A DNA stretch of 64,000 nucleotides, taken from positions 310,001 to 374,000 of the forward strand of contig FN648111.1 in NCBI GenBank assembly GCA_000310025.1, read 5' to 3'. This document shows, piece by piece, positions 8,200 through 61,941 of the stretch (the first letter of the stretch is position 1; every line of letters begins with the position of its first letter). The position numbers and the translations under genes were made by a program. The stretch comes from Ectocarpus siliculosus. Lineage: Eukaryota; Sar; Phaeophyceae; Ectocarpales; Ectocarpaceae. Under the pieces are notes generated by a model. The model was not told the origin of the DNA and ran no database searches. It was given only the letters and a program-made list of their open reading frames with translations.

Positions 8200-10407
8200 T
8201 CAACCGTAAGTTTGGTTGTACGTACGTCTAGCCGCTCCAACCACAGCACCCCCCTTGCGAGACGCCCGTTTTCTTTTGCCGGTGTCTCTGCTCGTCGGCG
8301 GGCGGACGACAGCTGGATTTGCCACCGCCAATCCTGCCGACGATCCTATCCTCGACGCCTGGTGCACTCCCTGCTTAAATTGCTGCACGAGTGCCCGCAG
8401 GGCTTCGGGAGGCACAGTCTCTACCCCCAAGCTTACAGCTGCTGTTGCCTCCTTGAGGCAGTCTACGTAGAGAAATCGGCGGTCTTGCGGGGTGGGCCCG
8501 GTCTCCTTCAACTGCACTAGAGAAGACTCAATGGTCACGTTACCAGCATCCCACTGCACCCCTCCCCCTGCTCCCCCCCCCCCCTTGTCGCCGTCCGTGG
8601 CACACTGCAGCCTGCCGGTGGCGACAAGCGGGGCCTGTTGTTCGCCCTCAGATAGGGCCTCGTGGTTTTTGGTTACGGCCCACTTGGGCTTTGCCCCCTC
8701 TGGCCACTCAGTTGTCGCCCTCCGCCCCCTCTGGCCACTCATGGTCCTGGGGTGTACTCTTCGGCCATGCAGAGCCTCTATGACGACCGCTTGCGCGGCC
8801 GGTTTCAATCCAGCATCTGGAACGGAGAACAAGAACGCGGACGTAGTATGGACGACACACTCGTTGGGCCACATATCACACGTCCGACCAACACCGGACA
8901 ACACACTCGTTGGGTCAAACACCGAACTGCCCGACTAGCCTATTTTTAACCTGTCCCCGGGTAGGAGGACACCTTGCGTCCCGTGTAAAGGTATACCAGA
9001 GCAAAAGAAGTTCGCGTTACAACGACACCCACAATCAGCACACACCTATCAACGCGCCTCACTTGCCCTCTTGCGGCAAGAGTCCAAGCTGTACAGCACG
9101 TCGTATAGTTTGATGATGTCAACGAAACACAAAACGTTCGCGCCCAACTTCGGGGGGCGGAGGCGGGCAACGACACTACCTCGAGCACCAGCAAAGCGAG
9201 GCTAGACGACTTACCAGTGAGCTTCGCTGCGGTCTCCTTCATTGGGGTCGTCAATGGCCCCTTCTGTGCTTGTTGAACATCCGCAGCCTCTTTGTCGACG
9301 GTGTGCAGGTGCTCCAAATCCATCGTCGTCAACCGCGGATGCTGGTGGACGTCGGTCTTAATCGGCCATCGAATGTTGATCTGAAGGCCAGTCAGTCGGT
9401 AACACAACAGTCACGCAGCAACGACAGCAACGATAAGCAAAGTGTGTTCATCGTATTTTCAAGGAGGTTAAACCACCCTATCAAAAACAATCTCGACCCC
9501 ATGCTGACGTCAACCAAAACAAACCAAGAACCTCCACGCATGTGTGTGTACGAGCTGGGGCGTTCCATCATATTCAAATATAGTCGCATCGAACACACGG
9601 CGAGCGGAGAGTAAGGTGCTGTCTTTCATGCTTGCAACACGACAGAAGAAGTGTTTCCTGCCCCCCCCCATCATCTCTCCTAGCCCTTCATTTGCATAAC
9701 GACAACATTCCAAGGCAGGGCTGCAGAACCCACACACACACACAACACCAACCTTGCAGTTGCAGCCGGTCCTCTGGCTGTCGCTTCTCCGGCTCTTCGT
9801 GCTGTTGTCTGCCACACAGGTAAAGGAAAGGGGAGTGGCAGGAGACCGCCTAAAGCACATTAGGTACGGTCGAGTATGCATAGGTTGCGTGGAACATATA
9901 TTCCTCACTCCTCACTCTCCAACATGTTCATCTCTGCAGCGCGCGTCATGCCTGGACCTGAACGTCGCTCTTTTTGTACCCATTGATGCAATACACCAGG
10001 TGACACATACCGAATCGGGGGCGGGTGTTACTGCGGGTGCCCTTTACCACGTCGCGGCGCCCAACCTCTACGCCACGTGTGTTCCATACGTCGGCATTCA
10101 CGCGGGGAAAATGGGGGGGGGGGGAGATCATGGCGCATTTATACTAACCGGTACTTGCTGGTTTTTTCCGTTGCGGCATGCCATGTACGCATTGCAACGT
10201 CGTCGCCACCACTCGACCGCCCCCCCTCTCCTTAGAAGATGTGGACACGGACACCTTGACCCCATGCTGTTCGCACACGTCCTTCACGGCCGATACTAGC
10301 TGGGGAATGTCCTTCTCCTTTGTGGGGATGTTTCCGAGATCCCTCTTCAGGGCGTCAGCGCTGTACACCCATTTTTCCTGCACGACAGGCAACCGGAACC
10401 AGGGCAT
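8200..10407 (-). pseudogene. Internally deleted FAR1/Mutator-like (MULE) transposase copy
   Basis: Reading leftward, exons 10407-10155 (ATG, MPWFRLPVV), 9808-9753 and 9380-9215 join in phase, with donors such as GTAAGT. They encode an N-terminal domain of FAR1/WRKY-GCM1 character: WVYSADALKR, a Cys/His-containing VHGMPQRKK, RTGCNCK and VHQHPRL (the HNHP position). A fourth exon starting near 9179 runs to a stop after SCRKRASEAR. Then 8922-8200 encodes a C-terminal block alignable with the transposase at 13,813-17,069: WPEGAKPKW versus WPDVARPRW, LKETGPTPQDRRFLYVD versus LKEKGPTDQDRQVLYAD, and ANPAVVR versus ANPGTVR. The DDE catalytic core and SWIM finger expected between them are missing, with no room for them. 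It is best read as a deletion derivative. Terminal inverted repeats were not found. Confidence 0.68.
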
Positions 10408-11365: not shown

Positions 11366-11830
11366 TCACCACATCCCCTCCCTGGGCATCTCCCGGAACA
11401 TTTGCTGTTGAGATATCGCTTCCTGCTGCTCGTGCTTCTCTCGGAACTTCTCTTCGTTGCTCTTCACGTCCTGCGTTTGACTTTGACGTTACAGCAGTAT
11501 AATAGAACAAGGGGAGACAGAGGGGAAAGAAAAGAAAATAACAAGGCTAGGGAGTGTTTCGGGCGGTCGGGGTCTTCCACTTATAGGGTCGCTAACAGGC
11601 AGAACGCAGACACCGTTGACCTGCATTCTTCTTTAGGAATCCCTCACCATTTGCTCTGGAGCTAATCCTGAATCTCCTGCTGCTCCTGCTCCTGCTCTGG
11701 CCTCCTGCTGCTTGTGTTTCGTTGACTCGTCGCGGCCGCTCTCGATTTCAATGACGCTGCTGCTGTCCGAAAGCATGTCGTCATCTCCACCCAAGGGCAG
11801 CCTTCCCCCGATAATATCCATGAGGGACAT
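11366..11830 (-). CDS. Small acidic/Gln-rich protein of unknown function
   Basis: Two exons on the minus strand: 11830-11648 (ATG, MSLMDIIGGRLPLGG, 61 codons, donor GTGAGG) and 11470-11366 (acceptor CGCAG, TGA stop), joined in phase 0 for 95 residues. The N-terminal part has a DDDMLSDSSS acidic run and a Lys/Gln-rich segment; the C-terminal part is a charged helix, EEKFREKHEQQEAISQQQMF, that could form a coiled coil. No family is recognised. The charged tail resembles C-terminal helices of transposon-associated trihelix/NAM-like proteins, but that is only a resemblance. Its 5' flank and first nine codons are duplicated at 7066-7300. A MULE is inserted 220 bp upstream of its ATG. It may belong to a dispersed repeat rather than being a host gene. 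Confidence 0.5.
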
Positions 11831-18451: not shown

Positions 18452-27334
<8,883 letters not shown>

Positions 27335-30233: not shown

Positions 30234-33200
30234 TTACCTAGGCTCTTGGGAGTAGATCTTTCCGTACTCTACCGGCAGCCCCTGCTCCTCACGCACGTTC
30301 CTAGCAAGCGCCTCGTCTCTAGCCCACTCCTGTTACAGGACAGCATGCGATTCAGTCATTCGTCAGTGGGCGTTCCTAAAACATGTGTCATGCTTCCTAA
30401 AAAAAGTCATGCACGTTGATTGAGCACCATCAATGGTTGCTGCTGAGTGTCATGCTTCCTAAAAAAGAGTGTTACTTGTTCGATGAATATCATTGGTTGT
30501 GACTCGCTTCACTACTCGCGCGTGTGGTGGAGAACGAGATAGCCCGCTGCTGGTGGTGCTCTCTTCCGTAGTCAACATGCTGAAATACGGTCGCATAAGC
30601 CACAATAGCTACTGCTGTCTTCACCGCCCGCTTAACGGGAAAACGCCTGTTTCAGATACCAGCTACTGCAGCTGTAGCGGAGAAACCGGTGGCGCACACC
30701 CCCCTCGACACATGAATACCGTATATGACACAAGATAACACACCCCCTTGGCCGATTTTCAAAGCTCGATTTCTCAACAGCAGGAAGAGTCACAGCGCCG
30801 AAAACGGCGGCGTTGGAACCGTCTCGTCGAGAGCTGTTCGAAAACGTATTGTTTCATTTATGCATCCTCTTCGTCGTGGAGTAATCGAGCTTTGAAAATC
30901 GGTCCAGGGGGTGTGTTATCTTGTGTCATATACGGTACTACAATAGTGATGATGTTCTACCTGTCGCCCATAAACGATTAATGTCTTGCTGTTGTCTCAA
31001 TCCAGTCCCCCTAAAGAGCAGGGTTTGGTGGGTGAGTACCCCGCTCACTCCAGTAGAATAGTGCGACCGTCAATAACGCAAGGCTGGAGAGCAATGAAAC
31101 ACAGCAGTCTGTTGCTGCGAATGCCAGGGGCACAGAGAAAAGCGGCCGCTGGTACCGGCCGCCCCGGTGGTCTAGTGCTACAGTCGTGGCTCTGTTTATA
31201 AGAGGGTGTTGTGACAAAGGCGCTCGACCTCTATAAAGGGTACCCTCTTATATGGGGGCACTCTATCGTAGGGTACCCTCTTACAAAGGGGGAGATCGAC
31301 ACTAACGAGAAACACAGGCACTTGACTACAGCACAGCGTACACCAGTATGCCGTGTAGGTGTGTAAGCATGTATGTGTGGTGGACTGTAAAGCACGTGTG
31401 GTGGGCTGATTGCCCGAGTTGACATGCCCAAAGCAAGCCGGGTGATCGTGATCGTATCGGCAACGCTTTCCGTTTTGTGATTAGTTCGTTCATGGAGTGG
31501 GAACATCTGCAGAGAATAATTGCCTCGCAGCCAAGTTGACGCAGCCATTGATACTAGGAGGTAAAGTACATGTTCATGCATGCATTTAAAACGCCTACAG
31601 AGTTGAACAACATGTTACAATTCCTCGACACCTCTCCGACCATGATAAACTTCATGTACACAGGCTACAAGCAAGTTTGTATTGCACCAACGAACGGTCT
31701 ACCTCCCCCTGGCCCCTGGCGCACACGATATACACATTGCCCACATTTAAAGAGGAGAGAACTCCCTGACGTCTGTATGCGGTGCAGGATTTGAACGGTA
31801 TGCTGAAAGGAACGAAATTCTAGCCTTGCACAAACAGCCCCCTGCTTCTCCTTGGCGCCGGGGCGTGTGCGTGTTCGTGTGCATTTTTATTTACTTTCAT
31901 TATTAGCATCGACTGCGCTACCCAGCTAACCAATGAAAACACGTCAGTCTCAGTGCGGCTGAACACAGAAAGTGCTTCAAAAGGCCACGACCTGGGACGC
32001 CATGAGGGCGCGCCATGGGGGAGGCTAAGCTATCCTCCAGATTAAAGATGGAGACCGTAGCAATAGAAGAAAACTGCACGTGTTTAGCCAAAGCTGCTAC
32101 TTTGCACACGTGTTCGTTTCGGGGTGCTTTCATCATCTTTGCATCATCCTCCTTGCATTTGCCACCAGTTTCACCAAAACACCACCATTCCTTGGCAGCT
32201 CCTCTCTGGTCTATTCTTCCTGCGGCGTTTCTTGTGAGGAATGTGTGTTTGTGTGTGAGAGAAAGGCCGGGGGGGGCACTCACCGGCGACTCCCTCACTT
32301 ACAAGCCCCCAATAGTGCGGTAAACCCTCTCTATAGTGGGGTGGGGTCCACTATGAAGGGTCCGATCTCTGTATTAGAGGGTAACCCTACTAGCGGGTCG
32401 AGTCCGTGACAACCAATTTCGACCCTCTTATATCGGAGCCCCGACTGTATCCTCGTAAACCACTAGTCGGAAAGGTCGTGAGTTCGAATCCCCATGGGGT
32501 GAAAAATTTACAAAATTTGCGGGTGCAAGCGAAATATGGCTGAAAAAGCTCTCGAGAGTAGCAAACTTCGACGTTAGCACCGTTGACGAGGGAAACGACT
32601 GGACCCTTCTCGCGATAACAAAAAAATTCAGGACGCACCGCAGGAGCAGGAGGACGGTGGGGCACGAAAATAAATAATAAGAAGAGAAGAGCCCTGGTGT
32701 TTACCCCCTCCTGCGTGACCCTGGATGGTTGTAGTTGTACTCTACATACACTGAAAAGTGTAGTACACGTCTCACCCCGAAAACTGGGGGGACTGTCACC
32801 ATGATAGATAGGACGAAAACACACACACACTACTTGCGAAAGCGCAACTACATTAGTGGTCCCGCTAAATGCCGGCTGAATAATGCCGGTTGCCCTATAG
32901 AATGCCGGTGAAATCGCCTGGCACAGATGTAATATTGAAGTTGTTTCATCCCATACTCTGAATATTGCCGGTTGCCCGCTACAATTGCCGGGTGAAGGGG
33001 CTTGCACTTACTGTATTGTATACCGTACCGGCATTATACCGGGACCACCACTACTGTACACCGAAGGACCTCTACCGTACCGCAGAGAAACGCCAAGACC
33101 ACGGCTGCTGTTCACCTTAATGCCCGTCTCCGGGCCGTAGCCCACTCCAGCAATAAGAATCACCGCGCTGGCCACCCAAGTCGCCGCCATGATCCCCTCC

Positions 33201-52714: not shown

Positions 52715-53624
52715 CGTTGACCATACATACACATGCTGATGCCAAGGGCACAACATCATGCACGAAGTATTGTTTTTTCATGTGGCTGGTCTTGCACCCG
52801 ACATCTGTGCCCATCTTGTGCGCAGAAATACACGGGTAGGTTTACTTCCCGATGAGCGCTGGGACTTCTCCGTTTTGACAAGCCGCATCTCTCCTTCCTG
52901 CGGCTGGTCATGAACGTGAACATGACCCCTTTTGTCGCACCCACGAAGCGCCAGGGTGTAGAAAGAACGGCACCATGTTTCGCCCCCGCCGCATTGCACA
53001 CATGAAATGAAACCCGAGCTTGGCGGTATTGAAACAGGTTTGCCGTCGATTTGTCGCGCCTCCATTTGCATGTGATCGATCTGGATAAGTACCCTATATA
53101 CACGAAGAAGAATTACAACATCAATAACTCCGGTGCATCCTCCAAGTTGTCTTGCTTTAGACTGACGGAATGTAAAAAACATTCGCTCTGTTGCCATTTT
53201 TTTCTCATGTTCGGCGAGCCTATAGCGGAGTTCTCTGGCGAGTACACAGAAGGTGGGATGTTTGTTATCGGAACCTTTCGTCTGCGATATGGACTCGGTT
53301 CTTCACCCCACCACTTGCGCTTGTTCCTGTGTCGGTATTTCTTTTTTCGGCAATTACTGCGTGAAAAGTTGTTAGTTTGGCAGCCACCGAGCTAGCTTCA
53401 AGGTGTTTTCAGCTGACAACTAAGAGTGCCGTGTCTTAATGCCGCAGGACGCGAGCGTGTACTACATCGTAGATAGTTGCTGGTAGCATTTTTACAAAAA
53501 GGCTCCGGCGAAAATTCATACCATGGTACACAGGATGCCAGCACCGACCAGGTAGCCGCGTCCGCATCGGACTAACCTCTTCGCTCCGATGTTCGCTTTA
53601 CCGTTTCGTTAGCCCGCAACAACG
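52715..53624. other. Upstream region of the ankyrin/TRP-like gene
   Basis: No supported frame. The last ~100 bp before the ATG at 53,625 are the probable 5' UTR. No promoter motif is convincing. Confidence 0.4.
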
Positions 53625-56600
53625 ATGGAGTCGGCGATTTGTTCCGCCGTCCCGGCGGAGGTAACGGCTCTTCTAGATCTGTTGAGGAATATGAGCAAGG
53701 CCTCCATGGACCGAGAGCTGACAGGGTGCTACGGTGGGAGAAGGGGTAACCCTCCACGGGTCGACGACAACGGGCTGTTTCGGATGACAGTTCCGCTCCT
53801 GCACGCCGCTTTTACTGGGAGCACTGGGATGTTTTCGACTGTCCTCGGAGCAATGCGAGCCAACCTGAGGCCTCAGCAGGCACGTGATGTCGCAGTGCAT
53901 GTTCAAGGCCCCATCTTCCGTGCCTTCATGCGCTTGTTCAAAGAGAAAAACAATTTTCCTACGCTGCTACATACCTGTTGAATGACCCTTGGTTGAAGTA
54001 CAGTAGTTCACTGGTCTAGCGTCGATTTGACCATTGAGCATGCGTTATTGCTCTCTTGTTCCCAAGATCGCAAATGGCCGGCAATGGTGGTTTGGCTTGC
54101 CACGGCACCTTTGACTGCAAGGCGCCGTTATCACGCAAGAGGACTGACTTACTCCCGTGGCACAAGACCCATGAGTGGTCAACCTCTTCCACGCCACCCC
54201 GTAGTAATCCAACCGGACGATCATCACCAGGTGAGACGAGCACTGGTGGCAAGAGATGGGCACGAACGTACAATCCTGGCGATGGCACTCGCGAGCAAGA
54301 GCAAGGGTTTGTTTGAGGCTGCGCTTGCTGCTCTGGAGGAAGACCTGACCAGGAACGAGGTGGGTCCACAAGAGTCGCCGTTGGCTAGCGCCGAACGCTC
54401 ACCGCATGCGACTGCCATCATGGACCTTCAGTTTTATAGTGATTGGGCTATGTTTGCCTCCCTACCTTCTGCTTTGCGCTGGATGCGTTTGCAGGTGAAA
54501 GAGCTGATGATGACCCCAGATGCTGATGGCCAAAAGATCTTACACTGGGCCGCAGCCACCGGATGCCTGCACACGTTTGAGACCGTTCTGTCAGCTCTAG
54601 GCAGCCGGCTGGATCAAGGCGAGGTGCGGCAAGTTAGAGTCACCATGGTGACGTCACTAAAACTTGTCACGTATCGTTCTGGTGTCGGAAATATTAGTTG
54701 GCCGCAGTCCACGTCACTCGTTTCGAGACTCCGCTCCCAGGTCACCGGCCGGCCACAGAGTATCGTACCCAGCACACGCCGTGCAATCGCGATCGCTCCA
54801 AAACCTTCTCCTGCGAATGCGCGTTTTCGCGTCTTCAGGTTGAACACCTCTTGGCGGCGTCTACGGCAGCCTCAACTAATGACATTTTCAGCGAAAGCCG
54901 AACGGTGCTGAACTCGGCAGCCAGCAGCGGGGGAAGCCAGGTTTTCGTGGCAGTCCTGGATTTGCTCGAACGGTGTCTTTCTGCTTGGCAGGTGCGAAGT
55001 CCTCCAGTGGGTGTGTTGTCCGCCGAGATGGTCTGGCGGTAGTTGGGTGCTGCATAGTAGGAGCTTCAAGACAAGCTATTGCCAGTCAAACGTGATACGC
55101 TGCCTGAAGAGATGTTGTCATCCAGTCAGCGAGACCCTCTCTTGGACCGAGACCCCTGATCAATGTTTTTCTGCATGTTGGCTGACCCTCTGGAACGGTA
55201 TCAACGGAGGCACACTGGGTAAGGACCTTCGTTTTTTCTTGCCGACGTAGCCCGCAGCAAATAGGTGCCCATCGCCCTCTGTCGCCAACGATCCACCATT
55301 TTTTGGACTTGCGTGCGACGCCAGGTGAAGCGCATGATGATTTATCAAGATATGGACCTCCAGGAGAACCTCCTTCATTCGGCGATTAACAGTCGGAGCA
55401 CCAACGCGTTTGACACCGTGTTGTCGTCGGTGACGAGCCGACTGACGCCGACCGAGGTACGAACGCTGACTCGACCCTCCAAACCGTCGAAGACTCGTTA
55501 AACGATTACAGAGTCGACGTTGAAAATTGTCGAGTACTCTGAATCAACTCCAGAACCAACGACGAACACTGTCGAAGAATCTCGAACGATTAAAGAGTCA
55601 ACCGTGCAGCTATTTTTGCGTTTTGGTCTTGCTCACGTCACTCCTTGCAACAAACTTTGAACCGAACCGAACCCCTGGTCCCTAGGCGAGAAATTTCCTC
55701 CTTCGTGCCGACGACGGCAAGACTCTCCTGCATGCTGCGGCTGGGAGCGGTAGCAAGGACATGTTTGAAGCGGTGTTGTCCACGCTGCTCCGCACATTCG
55801 GCCCAGAGAAGGTAAATCGATAGGAAGCGTCGCCAGCGTTGTCGGTGTGCAGGGAAACCGCCCACTTCGGTTGCCGCAGCGCTCGCGGTTTTTGTCGCCA
55901 CATCGCAACAGTTTTGCTTTATGTCTACCACCTCCCCAACCGCGCTCGCACCCCGCATGCAGAGACGATGGTGTACTGATCGCTCCAGGGTGTGATCCAT
56001 AATCGAACGGGATTCGTTGCTTTCGAGCTTGTACTTTGCGGTATTGTCTCTTGTCATGTTGTCGCGGTTCTGCTCGCAAAGGCGTTGATGTCTTCGGTTT
56101 GATTGCGTGATGTTCCTTCCAGGTTCAGGCGATATTGACGTCTAAAGCGAAGCACGGCAAGACGATCCTGCAGTTCGCAGCTCAGAGCGGGAACAAGGAG
56201 TCCTTTGGAACTGTTCTGGCGGCGGTGAAGGGCACTCCGGCCGCTCAAAAGGTGCACGAGTCTTGGCACGATGGTGGCGTTCCGTAGCCACATCGTCCCG
56301 AGCGTTGTTTGCGTTGATACTTCTCTCGGTCATGCAGCTGCGTATTGCACTGTCGGGAGACCAATATCCTGTGTGTATTGCTTCTCGGAAGTAACAGGGC
56401 TGCATCTTTTTGTCTTTGCCTCTGGTTCGAATGCCAGGGGACAGACGTGACTGTATGGTCTTCTAGGAGCGACTCTGGGCGAGTCCTTTGCGCTGCGGCC
56501 AGCAGTGGGAGCAGGGGGACGTTTGAGGCTGCGCTGGGGTCCCTGGAGCTTGAACTGCCTCCGGATGAGGTAAACGCGAGATTACGTGAACACCAGCGTC

Positions 56601-59600
56601 AAGTGTTGAGCATAGGATGTCCTGAGCATTGGCTGTCTTCTCAGGTTTTACAGCTAGGCTTAGCATTGAGGCGGCAATGGCCGCAACCGGAAAATACTTA
56701 CCTATACGAGTAGATCACGAACGTTCTCGCAAATACGTGGCAGTTGTGAAACCAGGTCGTCTTTTTGTGGGCCTTTCGGACACCCAAAACGCCAATATTT
56801 TCAGAAACGAATAGACAACGATCGATCCTTGCGCGGTACCTGCCTCCGTTTTTTTGCTGTATATACATACGGCACTTGACAACACTCTAGCGCAATTATT
56901 TTATTGATTTTTTTGTCCTTGGAATACCTGAAACAAACGAAAAATAGCAGGCAGACCAATGCCTCGGCTTTATGATCAAGCTGGACCGCTGCGACATCAG
57001 CCACCCATTCGTTCATTTGAGGCATCTTTAACATGCCCGAAAACTTGAAACCTTTCGACAGGTCAAGACGTTGCTGACGTCTACAGGAAATGGCGGCAAG
57101 TCTCTCATAACCTTGGCGGTCAGCAGCGGTAGCAAGGAAGTGTTTGAGGCGGTGCTCGCTGCCCTGTCTTCCTGGCAGGTAGAGGCCCGTTGGTAGCAGA
57201 ATCCAACAACGTATGCTGCGCTCCACGGAGCGGTTTCCTTACATCGCCGTCTACAGGTCGCATGACGTACTTTGCACGAGCGTATTCGTGCCTGAGAGGA
57301 TTAGGGTATTGCTGCCAACAAATGTGGTTGAAAAGCTGATCATCACCAGAGCAGCTGGGCACTTTCGTTTTTCTGTAGCCCCACTGTATGAGCGTGTCAC
57401 AAGCATTAGGTCTACTGCTGTAGTTGTCCAACAGCTGCACAACATTGTTATATGAAAGTTGATGTTCGGGGGGAGGTGGGCGTGACGATGCAGGTTTTTT
57501 TGAAATATACGAAAATTGAGACCTAACATCGTGTCCTGCTGCGGCGGGAACAGGTCAGGGACGCGATGCGCACGTCTAGCATGCATGCAGAACTGCTGGT
57601 TGCTGCGGCGAAGAGTGGGAGTATCGAGCTCTGGCAGGCGGTCGTGAATGACACAAGGGAAGGGAAGGTAAAGTGGGCATAATGTCGCAAGGGTTTGAGG
57701 CTCGTTTCCTAGACTGTGATCACGCAATGTTTGGCGTCATGGAAGACTTTTTGTCAGCTCGTGATCACGTGTTGCCCACTTGAGGGTGTAATACAAGCGA
57801 ATCATGCACGACAATATTTCTCATATGCGGGTGCGCTCCCTGCGCTTGGCCAGGCGCTTGGCCAGGCGAAAACAAGTGTGGTATCCGACGACAAGGGGGC
57901 AAGTCTGCTGCTGCGCACGGCGGCTTCGCAAGGCACCGTGCGGATGTGGGAAGCGGTTCGGCACGACTTACTTCTTGTCCAACCAGAACAGGTACGTGGT
58001 ATTGGAATATATCGTGGCGTCCAGGACCTTGCTTGATCCCTATTCGCCGTTCGAAACATGGCGCTGGGGGATCGGGTGACTATCGTGGCTGAAGGACAAT
58101 ATCAATTACTCCCTCCACAACGCGCTCGGTGGTGTCTTGCATATATTTGTTTTTGGTGGGGCACTGCTCACGTCGATGCCCGAAATGTTTTGACCTGGTG
58201 GCTTTTCGCCATGACCAAGCGCTGTGAAGTTTCCCAAACACGAACGCCCATATCATTTGAACACCGTGTGCCTTTGCCCCATGGAAGGTCCTTGGCTTTT
58301 TGTCGCGCAACTCGGGGCTGGCCAACGTGTTGGTGAAGGGGGCCGTCAGGAGTCGAGATCCTTCCATCGTGGGAGCCGTGATACAGTTTGTGCACTGCAC
58401 GCGACTTGAACAGGTAAGCCTTACTCAAAGCGTGTCCCAACAATCGTGTGTATTGCCGAGCATGGGCACATGTTGTGTTAGATCTGGTACACGAAACTCT
58501 CTGTACTTGTCCTTTTATGATGGCGAATGACTATTGTCAACACGCCCACTGTGGGAGAAGTCGACCCGTTTCGCGCCTGTTCCGATTCCATAAACCAGGG
58601 GGTTTTGGATTTTGGGGCGTTCATTGGGTCTGGGTTCTCGGACTGGACGACGGTGGTACTGGAAAAGTCAAACTTTGCGCAGGGAGCGGGTGGCGGAGGG
58701 CTTGACTGGGCCATAGGGGCTTTGTCTTGCCTGCTTCAATACCCGACAATGTTCGATACGGCAGATCTCATCCAGCTGTCACGAGAACGATCTGCCGAGT
58801 GGCTAAGGACTTGCTTCCTGGAGACCGTGGCGTGCTCCGACAACCCGTTCGTGCCCGGAATGACCCTGTCGATTGCGTTTGCCAAGTCGGCCAGCGTAGC
58901 TCCCGAAGGGGAGCGTCGGAAACTCCTTTCCCTGCAGGAGAGGGTGGATACCCTGTTGCTCGAGATTCTGGAAAGGCTCCCTCAGACTGTGCAGGGGTTC
59001 GACGGGGGAATGACTGGCTGCTCGGCTGTGTTCGAGCCCGAGCTTTCGAGGGAGGATGCAAGAGGGTTGCCCGGGCCTTTACGGCTGGCGCTGCAAGAGC
59101 GACAGCACGTCCAGACGTTTTGCACACAGCCACTCCTCACGGATTTCCTCTCTCGCCGCTTTACGTATGGCCTCCCTGGTCTAAGGGACACGCAGAACAT
59201 TCTCGGAGATAGAAGGGAGCTGACTAACCTTGCCAGGGGCGGGCCGGGAGAACTCATGTCGGGGCAGAAGTATCTCGCCTTGGACGAAGAGGGACGAAGG
59301 AAGGAAGATGGCAGAAGTCTTGATCGGTGCCTCTTGCTTGATCTCCAGGACAAGATCGGGCAGGAGGGGAAGCTACTGGATTCACGCAAGATCATCGACA
59401 CGTTGTTGTCCCCTTGCATCCTTCTGCAGGGCGCAAACTGTGCCGGTCTCTGGAACACCGCCGTTAGTCTAACCTTCCTCCCGGGGGCGCAATTTACGAT
59501 CGCTGGGCTGGTTGGTATGCCGGATCAGTACTATCGCGTCCCAGCGATGAGAATGCTGCTGGACCTGGCGGTGTATCTAGGCATGTTGGTATTTTTCAGC

Positions 59601-61941
59601 ACCGTTGTGCTCTTCCACGAAGACGGGCCCCTGACCCCCGGAGAGGCCGCCTTCGCCTTTTACATACTGGTAGGTTCATGCTTCACCGCAAGTAGAACAT
59701 CATGTCAAGCCGTTGCGGTTTAGACCTTTCGGTGGCAGTGACATCAAGCATCCACAGCAGATCTTGTTCCCGGAGGCATCGTGTTGGTGTTGTTTGAAGC
59801 ACGTCACTTGGAGGCACCGAGTAGAGGCGTGTTAGATGCGATTGCCTCGACATTTCTCTGCAACATCGTTTCACGATAATTTACCATTATTCCAAAAGTG
59901 GTGTTTTGCGTGACAGGAAGGGGCACACTAAAACCCGACCTTACAACCGCTGGTCGCTGACGCTTGCCTGTCCCAAGGCTGGCATTATCACAGAAGGACA
60001 AGAGATGAGGAGAGATTTCGGCCTCTACGCGGCGGACCACTGGAACATTCTAGATCTGCTGGGGCTTGGGCTCGTGACCGGCGGGCTAATTGTCCGATGT
60101 GCCGACGGGGACAACTCATGGGGGCGAGCTCTGTACGCTCTCAGTGCTCCCCTGATATTTTCGCGACTGTTGTTCTTCGCTCAGATGCTGCGATTCCACG
60201 GGCCGATGATCCAGGTGAAGTTTTAGTGTGTCCGTTATCAAGTGGGTCGATGTGCCTACCTTGTTCTGCTTATCAGTGTTGGCCGAGTACGTTCTGTGGT
60301 ATGACTTTCGTACGTTTCAACTCTACAACTGTGGTTGGTTGTCTTCAGGACAAATGCCTGACGGTGGAATATCCACGCTCAAGTATCGACGCTCAAGTAT
60401 CGACAACTTGTACGGAACGTTCGCGAGGAATGGAGTCCATTTCTTCTACATGTCTTGTCGGAAACTAGAACTACAACAATCCCTGACTAGTTTAGTTTCA
60501 AGAGCGACTTGCCACACGCAGTTTTGGGAAAGCGTGCTCGAATGTCACTCTTGTGGCTTGGGTCTAAGGCGGCAAGGAGACCCTTCGGCACATTGAATAG
60601 AGGGGATGTTTTTTCCCGGGCCTGAAGCTTCTATGGAATGGGATATTTATGTATCTATATGTTCGGTTCGTGAAGATTGGCGAGGGAAGAGTCCCTCCTC
60701 CTCACGTCTGGCATCGTTTGCGGTCTCCACCATGTCGTCAGGTTGTTTTCAGCATGACCGCGGAGCTCGTCAAGTTTGGAGTCGTAATAATCGTCGTGAT
60801 GCTCGGGTTTGCCATGTCCTTCCACGCTCTGTTCGGGGACGTCGACACGTTCGGCGGAACGTGCCTCACTTTGTTCAAAGCTATGTTGGGTGAGGTCGAC
60901 TTCTTCGGCTCTTTTCCAGGCAACCAGTACGACTCGGTGGCCACCGCACTCTTTGTCATCTACCTGGTTGTTATTGCCGTGATGCTGCTCAACCTTCTGA
61001 TTGCCGTCTTGAGCACATCCCATTCCAAGGTGGAGGGGAAGGCTGATCAAGAGTTCAAGGTGTCGAAAGCCCGAATAATCGAGCACTATCGAATGGTGGT
61101 GGACATGTGCTTGCTACCCCCCCCCTTTAATCTAGTGCAGCTGATACTATCGCTGCCGGTCATGGTCAGAGATCGATCAGGGCAAGGGACTGCATCAACG
61201 CGCGCACAGGAAGCGGTAGGCCGGATGGCGTTTTGGCTCGCTTTGGGGCCTGTTGCGGCCGCTTGTGGAACGGTGTTGTGGGTGTTGTCCTCGTTGTTTG
61301 CGCCTTTTGTATGGCATACGCACTTCTATAGCAAGGCGCAGGCCAGACGCGGTGCGTTGTCTGTTGGTTCACTCCTAGTTCGGTATTTGATCGTATTTTT
61401 TTGGTGCGTTCTTGGGGCCCCGCTGTACCTCATGGCATTTTGGCTCACTGCGCCCATGAAATGGCTCAAGCTACGACCCTGGTGCTGGGTATGGGATCGC
61501 CGCCAGGCGCCCTACATAGCTTCTTGGAATCCAAAGAGCGTGAACGACTTGCTGGAGGGAAACAGTGGCGGGCTTGTAGCTGGCGATCTTCAAATGTACC
61601 TTGAAGACCCAATCGGAGATCCCGAGGTACGGCCGGACGAGAGAAGAAAGCAAACGACGGTCGAGAATATTAAGCAACTGCGAAACCGCCTAGAGAAAAC
61701 AATCTTGACCCACTTGGACGCGAAGTTGGATAGTATCGAGCAGGATCGCGCGAGCTCGACTGATGGCGTACAGGTCCGGTTGGCCCGAATGGAGGAAAAC
61801 CTCGCGGGGATCAGAGCCCAGTTAGATGACCGGTTACGCCGCGTTGAGGAACATGTCTCAAAGATGCAGGAACAGGTCGACGAGAGGATTGATAGGTTCC
61901 TGAGTATTGTGGAACAGGCGGTGGATCGCAGAAACACGTAA
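53625..61941 (+). CDS. Ankyrin-like repeat TRP-type ion channel
   Basis: Probable plasma- or organelle-membrane cation channel with an intracellular repeat domain. Fifteen exons, every intron phase 0: 53625-53879, 54231-54359, 54495-54623, 54839-54991, 55325-55456, 55686-55811, 56123-56251, 56438-56569, 57062-57178, 57554-57667, 57866-57991, 58288-58413, 58599-59669, 59978-60214 and 60742-61941 (TAA); 1391 residues. Exons 2-12 (residues ~86-556) each encode one divergent ankyrin-like unit, e.g. DDGKTLLHAAAGSGSKDMFE, ending L..L...Q/E/K at the junction. Exon 13 holds a soluble linker and membrane segment LLDLAVYLGMLVFFSTVVLF (~876-895). Exons 14-15 give HWNILDLLGLGLVTGGLIV, S4-like ALYALSAPLIFSRLLFFAQM, S5 (~1003-1022), pore TLFKAMLGEVDFFGSF (~1035-1050) and S6 ALFVIYLVVIAVMLLNLLIA (~1061-1080). 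Two further hydrophobic stretches and a coiled coil (last ~70 residues) follow. S4 lacks a regular arginine ladder, as in TRP channels. Exon 1 uses a probable GC donor. Confidence 0.87.

Follow-up and report, generated by a model that had tools for sequence, protein, structure and literature searches.

The channels NOMPC, TRPA1 and TRPC each carry a stack of ankyrin repeats, canonically of 33 residues, at the N-terminus ahead of a TRP (transient receptor potential) channel domain. In the present study we describe a gene of Ectocarpus siliculosus that encodes an N-terminal array of ankyrin-like units and a TRP-like channel; it lies on the forward strand of contig FN648111.1 (assembly GCA_000310025.1), at positions 53625–61941 of a stretch of 64,000 nucleotides (contig positions 310,001–374,000) that we refer to as the window, and positions given without a locus name are those of the window. 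On the evidence set out below, we consider it likely that this gene, which looks intact, belongs to a family of TRP-like cation channels and has an exon-modular ankyrin-like arm that would be changeable by exon turnover. Unlike the units of the ankyrin-TRP channels named above, those of the window gene are of approximately 43 rather than 33 residues and are encoded one per exon, and the channel has conserved hydrophobic segments after S6. An ankyrin stack N-terminal to a TRP channel domain is also described for crTRP1 of Chlamydomonas (PMC6744473). Drosophila TrpA1 is another TRP gene of the ankyrin type with alternative exons, although in that gene mutually exclusive exons occupy two sites, as opposed to the array of exchangeable units in the window (PMC11471635). 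The YVC1-like and polycystin channels resemble the window gene in the channel domain itself, for which the YVC1_C and PKD_channel profiles both score over the cut-off, the ankyrin-like array being what sets the window gene apart.

In exon design, the window family resembles the LRR-ROCO (leucine-rich repeat) genes of brown algae, which are built of 72-bp phase-2 LRR exons and for which splice variants and sites under positive selection have been reported (Teng et al. 2024, PMC11378527). In both cases one structural repeat is encoded per exon, a single phase is kept and the number of repeats varies among genes (PMC11378527; Zambounis et al. 2012, cited therein). However, in place of 72-bp phase-2 exons and a GTPase output, the window family has phase-0 exons of approximately 129 bp, ankyrin-like units and a channel output, and whereas positive selection has been reported for LRR-ROCO genes, it was not found for the window family in crude pairwise tests. 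The NB-TPR genes of brown algae are likewise repeat-per-exon arrays discussed as candidate receptors, but with TPR (tetratricopeptide repeat) units and an NB (nucleotide-binding) output (cited in PMC11378527). Repeat-per-exon arrays are already known from these two families, and it is the ankyrin/TRP version, with phase 0 and units of approximately 43 residues, that looks new.

TRP genes are reported to be greatly expanded in brown algae (PMC11085791), and the word ‘ankyrin’ is absent from the main text of that paper. Both PMC6744473 and PMC7312350 cite effects of TRP agonists and antagonists on calcium uptake by Ectocarpus, and PMC5907779 deals with the activation of TRP by copper. One paper, PMC7399828, brings together a brown alga, ankyrin repeats and TRP channels, and there ankyrin is brought up only for an oomycete receptor. 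Among the papers listed by searches of the open literature, in which subscription journals are mostly missing, none dealt with exon arrays of the ankyrin type in TRP genes of brown algae. The window family links the TRP genes of a brown alga to exon-modular arrays, which in brown algae had hitherto been reported for candidates for immune receptors, and makes it testable whether arm length and unit choice determine how the channel behaves and whether splicing, or evolution only, makes use of the exon layout.

Exon layout and encoded domains

From the sequence we reconstructed the gene as a model of 15 exons (53625–61941, forward strand) encoding 1391 amino acids, in which all 14 introns are in phase 0. 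A capping exon, exon 1 (53625–53879), holds the start codon and an N-terminal cap with one ankyrin-like hairpin, and is followed by 11 single-unit exons of 114–153 nt, by three exons for the TRP-like channel and by the stop codon, which ends at 61941. The unit exons, U2–U12, are all phase 0-0, all bounded by AG and GT and all of a length divisible by 3: U2 (54231–54359, 43 residues), U3 (54495–54623, 43 residues), U4 (54839–54991, 51 residues), U5 (55325–55456, 44 residues), U6 (55686–55811, 42 residues), U7 (56123–56251, 43 residues), U8 (56438–56569, 44 residues), U9 (57062–57178, 39 residues), U10 (57554–57667, 38 residues), U11 (57866–57991, 42 residues) and U12 (58288–58413, 42 residues). 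Intron 2 (54360–54494) is 135 nt long, a multiple of 3, and has no stop codon in frame, and is a candidate for frame-neutral retention. Exon 13 (58599–59669) encodes a linker and the first strong hydrophobic segment, which we label S1-like, exon 14 (59978–60214) the middle part of the TRP-like transmembrane domain, and exon 15 (60742–61941) S5, pore and S6, at least two further hydrophobic segments, the C-terminal tail and the stop codon. An ordinary AG is present at every acceptor and an ordinary GT at every donor except that of exon 1. The initial annotation had proposed eleven consecutive exons of 114–153 nt with one ankyrin-like unit each, which we recovered with their splice sites and frames, and phase 0 for all 14 introns, which holds in the rebuilt model with the end of exon 1 as its weak point.

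A search of the alga's own genome revealed related channel exons at six loci, namely C3a and C3b (both on contig C3), C6, C10, C11 and C13, and these bear on the choice of the exon 1 border. A protein of 1391 residues is obtained only if 53879 is the last base of exon 1 and the donor is of the GC type, CAG|GCACGT. The phase of intron 1 is fixed at 0 by the U2 acceptor and the frame, and the donor was picked to fit; a GT four bases past 53879 is out of phase 0, and the alternative ends with phase-0 GT donors, at 53888 and 53894, would give 1394 and 1396 residues respectively, neither being preceded by an AG codon. We consider 53879 the likely end of the exon because the first exons of C10, C11 and C3a end in an AG codon, and because a unit at C13 (C13_c) was placed, by hand, at an identical CAG|GCACGT border. 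Against this choice, the first exons of C10, C11 and C3a have GT donors, and those of C10 and C11 stop approximately seven residues earlier. The Pfam scan of the window protein and the own-genome search were made with the 1396-residue version (exon 1 to 53894), in which the five extra residues lie outside the domains.

Clear one-unit-per-exon phase-0 arrays were present at five of the six paralogous loci, and the window array, with one repeat per exon and a uniform phase, is built in the manner of the brown-algal repeat-per-exon arrays. A profile made from the 11 window units alone finds more open phase-0 exons of the form AG|..|GT upstream of TRP-like genes at other loci. When all nine phase combinations were offered, phase 0-0 was best for 26 of the 31 live units and lay within 0.7 bits of the best for the remaining five, in a scoring by an iterated profile that was trained on 0-0 candidates, which favours 0-0, and that took GT donors only, GC being left out; the border of one C3a unit (B1) was set by hand, the scan having preferred a longer 0-0 exon. 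The units are 38–51 residues long in the window and 34–46 in the paralogues, with 43 the commonest length, and the 31 together display the pattern D-x-x-G-x-T-L-L-x-x-A-A/V-x-S-G-S-x-x-x-F-E-A-V-L, with one invariant alanine, followed by a longer tail that ends mostly in Q, E or K. This pattern resembles the ankyrin consensus apart from its longer tail, and as the units do not keep the 33-residue ankyrin period we describe them as an ankyrin-like variant and not as canonical repeats. Within the window, identity to the first unit is only 12–38%.

Exon-final AG is part of the ordinary splice consensus, and an AG end was found in all 11 window unit exons and in 19 of the 20 live paralogue unit exons; in this family-wide trait phase 0 fixes the consensus in the last codon. 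A GTN start is, in contrast, particular to the window gene (8 of 11 unit exons, as against a GT start in 3 of 20 in the paralogues), so that the earlier description of unit boundaries as an AG end followed by a GTN start stands for the AG end throughout and for the GTN start locally, but not as a rule of the family.

Profile searches agree with the initial annotation on an ankyrin-like array joined to a TRP-like channel. The window protein matched the Pfam profiles Ank_2 (E 9e-13, over the cut-off, strongest at U6 and U7), Ion_trans (4.7e-12), PKD_channel (8e-6, over the cut-off) and YVC1_C (3.2e-6, 0.1 bit above the cut-off). Compared with the sequences of solved structures, its channel part matched Inactive (9.9e-15), YVC1 (7.6e-14), TRPM1 (5.6e-12) and the TRP-like ion channel 6pw4 (9.7e-12), and TRP entries made up most of the best 60 of 199 PDB sequence matches, whereas the array part gave weak matches to AnkX (0.0012), designed repeat proteins and NOMPC (0.024). 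The protein has a six-helix ion-transport domain with an S5-pore-S6 region related to TRP, as expected for a member of the TRP superfamily, and an Ion_trans match was present in four of the five channel exons scanned, the C13 fragment being the one without. Significance for ankyrin in Pfam was confined to the surroundings of U6 and U7, and the other window units were assigned by family similarity; when four single paralogue units were searched against Pfam, none scored over the cut-off, the best match being to Ank_3 (E 0.0022), and for two of them no match to ankyrin at all appeared at E ≤0.1.

Past S6, at least two strong hydrophobic segments, called by hydropathy (19-residue mean >1.4), were found in the window gene and at all seven other loci examined (C3a, C3b, C6, C10, C11, C13 and C6b), with an additional segment shortly after S6 in the window gene and at five of the seven. 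If membrane-crossing, these conserved segments would bring the TRP-like channel to a total of at least eight. The C-terminal tail looks to us like a coiled coil, the sole support from a tool being an Apolipoprotein match (0.47 for the window, 0.00033 for the C13 exon) that is far below the cut-off in both.

Unit number, exon turnover and constraint

Comparison of repeat-exon numbers showed that the paralogues differ: 11 live unit exons were counted in the window, 5 in C3a, 3 in C3b, 5 in C11, 4 in C10, 3 in C13 and approximately one in C6, where they were looked for in a longer stretch, all these counts being lower bounds. Weak further unit hits in C11 (12512–12579, E 3.2e-4; 9012–9067, 0.0099) and C3a (11636–11689, 0.018, or 0.001 with the B-type profile described below) could mean that the counts for these two loci are too low. 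Further fragments of the channel family lie on C3 at 7.0 Mb and C6 at 0.99 Mb, and in the stretches taken from there no unit scored above 10 bits. Four single-unit protein searches of the genome returned members of the family together with two weak hits to places that do not belong to it (C6:562328, E 0.057; C15:1262859, E 0.31), short queries of this kind being apt to miss diverged units. An in-frame stop lies close to the end of C3b, which may for that reason be decaying. Upstream of the C3b array, in the first 6 kb of the joined stretch, we noted by eye long open frames resembling retroelement polymerase and recombinase genes.

Two paralogues contain unit exons that match each other at the DNA level into the flanking intron, namely A1, A2 and A3 of C3a (E 2.4e-27 to 6.4e-22), the live B-type exons B1 and B3 of C3a (4.9e-17) and A1 and A2 of C3b (3e-43). 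In our reading, C3a consists of three A-B pairs and C3b of two. The third B unit of C3a, between A2 and A3, has lost its donor and shifted its frame and looks dead, and the order in C3b is A, dead B, A, B, the dead exon having a broken frame and no donor at the usual place. Both fossil exons were located with a B-type DNA profile, at 10271–10401 in C3a (5.8e-15) and 8214–8305 in C3b (1.5e-13), as against a best hit of 0.64 in a reversed-sequence control. A practical consequence of the phase-0 layout is that such a dead, frame-neutral exon can be omitted from the message without damage to the frame. These data support the gain and loss of exons over evolution in part of the family.

When the loci were compared with themselves, no duplicates of unit exons came to light in C10, C11, C13 or C6, and for the window array the comparison returned one internal match of 30 bp only; recent exon duplication inside the window array was rejected on this result. 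A search of the introns of the window gene with DNA profiles and all-phase protein candidates found no hidden or fossil unit beyond the hairpin of exon 1 itself.

A recent copy of the window array, with most of the channel deleted, lies on the reverse strand at C5:2229500-2239499. The stretch 53166–58704, comprising the upstream flank, exon 1, the 11 units and the first 106 bases of exon 13, is duplicated there at 98.8% identity; the 3,215 bp from 58705 to 61919, nearly all of the channel, are absent, and the copy resumes directly at 61920. The 12 exons that could be compared in full (exon 1 and the 11 units) are open in the copy and their splice dinucleotides are unchanged, down to the GC that follows exon 1, and unit number and order are identical. 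Only 11 of 1,789 exon sites differ (6 amino-acid changing and 5 silent, counted singly), with no indel, and in the introns 33 of 3,290 sites differ, with three indels. From the start of exon 13 the copy would encode 78 residues before a stop. As the contig ends approximately 10 kb from the copy, an assembly artefact is possible. The differences are unevenly spread, 11 in 2,999 sites of the 5′ part of the array block and 35 in 2,538 of the 3′ part (Fisher p 6e-5, computed with 34 in the 3′ part), and in the 3′ flank they amount to 1–5.5% per 200-bp bin up to position 64119 and 14–21% in the last two bins. Gene conversion and plain rate variation would both fit this unevenness. The idea of the initial annotation that unequal exchange alters the array is borne out for part of the family, in which the paralogue counts differ and C3a and C3b each have duplicates and one dead exon, but not for the window gene, which has no duplicates beyond 30 bp, no fossils and a C5 copy with the same exons in the same order.

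Selection on the units was assessed by crude pairwise estimates of dN/dS (the ratio of non-synonymous to synonymous substitution rates). Between C3a and C3b the ratio was 0.64 pooled over three paired units and 0.30–0.38 for the channel exons, with a modest excess of replacement changes in the units relative to the two large exons of the channel (without exon 14; Fisher p 0.0098). Thirteen single unit pairs gave ratios of 0.43–1.1, one being above 1 (1.1) and one 0.98, and the window compared with C5 gave 0.4 on 11 changes. Taken together, these crude comparisons (C3a/C3b units, window/C5 and the 13 single pairs) did not reveal diversifying selection on the repeat units, and the ratios speak for looser constraint on the units than on the channel exons and not for diversifying selection. 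Rapid diversification of the units is not borne out, the pooled C3a/C3b value being above that of the channel exons yet below 1.

Working of the arm and rival explanations

We infer that the protein conducts ions and that its arm has a sensing role. The cytosolic N-terminal arm would be a stack of ankyrin-like hairpins of approximately 43 residues, each corresponding to one symmetric phase 0-0 exon, with the exon borders falling between the second helix and the loop of the next hairpin (helix placement being taken from the ankyrin consensus). By analogy with other ankyrin-TRP channels, the arm would probably act as a spring or docking surface and might pass a bound ligand, a partner or membrane strain on to the six-helix channel, behind which there would be a minimum of two additional hydrophobic segments and a tail resembling a coiled coil. 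As every unit exon is frame-neutral, the length of the arm can change over evolutionary time without breaking the frame of the channel, presumably through duplication, death and loss of exon cassettes. Several points count against this account. The window array itself carries no sign of recent exon turnover, whether in duplicates, fossils or the C5 copy, and recent-looking exon duplication was seen at two of the seven self-compared loci, both on contig C3. The trees behind the A-B history are weakly supported (0.61–0.79 at the informative nodes) and do not decide between gained and lost pairs, and the death of the C3a and C3b fossil exons is read from DNA. In addition, most units taken singly are missed by Pfam, and the ankyrin fold of the weaker U10–U12 is suggested by family similarity.

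The first two of these points suit a different explanation, that the layout is an inert relic of an old duplication of one phase-0 exon, without a present role and in a sensor arm of fixed length. The low identity of the window units to the first, the lone 30-bp internal match, the unchanged exon content of the C5 copy and the lack of recent exon duplicates in C10, C11, C13 and C6 would all be expected of such a relic, but unit number is not constant among the paralogues of this genome, two of which have recognisable duplicates and dead exons, and we hold this explanation to be possible but doubtful. We find it unlikely, and rather more so, that the arrays serve somatic diversification by alternative splicing, in which unit exons would be skipped in combinations to give many arms per gene. 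All of the unit exons are symmetric, retention of intron 2 would be frame-neutral, and there is a precedent in the Ectocarpus ROCO splice variants with differing sets of LRR exons (PMC11378527); however, exon duplication alone also yields symmetry, and the splice sites are ordinary throughout apart from the donor of exon 1.

A receptor of immune type that is subject to diversifying selection, or whose exons recombine somatically, would share its genomic style with the LRR-ROCO and NB-TPR candidates of PMC11378527, and two of the 13 single unit pairs have ratios near or above 1. The pooled unit ratio of 0.64 and the window/C5 ratio of 0.4 argue against it, as does the comparison of the window with the recent copy on C5, in which no exon turnover was found, and PMC11378527 itself states that somatic recombination at ROCO loci has not been reported; we regard a receptor of this kind as highly improbable. 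Hardly more probable is a decaying gene or a mis-joined model. The model was made by eye and homology and needs a GC donor for exon 1, and relatives do decay (the in-frame stop of C3b, the dead exons of C3a and C3b, and the C5 copy without its channel), but the 12 fully compared exons are open in that copy, with the same splice dinucleotides and no exon indel, and exons 13–15 match the paralogues across much of their length.

Beyond our preferred account of an intact channel gene whose arm is changeable by exon turnover, a more far-reaching version of it can be framed, which we put forward as a speculation with the odds well against it. The arm would be built of interchangeable one-hairpin exons, and the number and choice of those kept would tune the gating range or the partners of the channel, in evolution, for which the family gives partial evidence, and perhaps by splicing; the protein would then correspond, among channels, to the modular LRR-ROCO receptors, and would have a membrane domain of eight or more segments. 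If the exons were interchangeable in this way, the C5 copy, which has the array and lacks most of the channel, could be a soluble decoy or a donor of arrays.

Dispersed repeats and other gene families

Two dispersed repeats were noted elsewhere in the window: a stretch of 0.6 kb (20085–20696) that is 96% identical to one within the C3a locus, and a stretch of 222 bp (30716–30937) that is 94% identical to one near C13. Two clusters of Ion_trans matches, several of them strong, lie at C17:2573041-2593472 and 5023796-5035308, and are not among the matches of the window protein. A COR-A search of the same genome, made for LRR-ROCO genes, gave one match, barely above the cut-off. The EsV-1-7 family is expanded in brown algae, and its repeat is abundant in this genome, with 150 matches (150 scored of 880 candidates).

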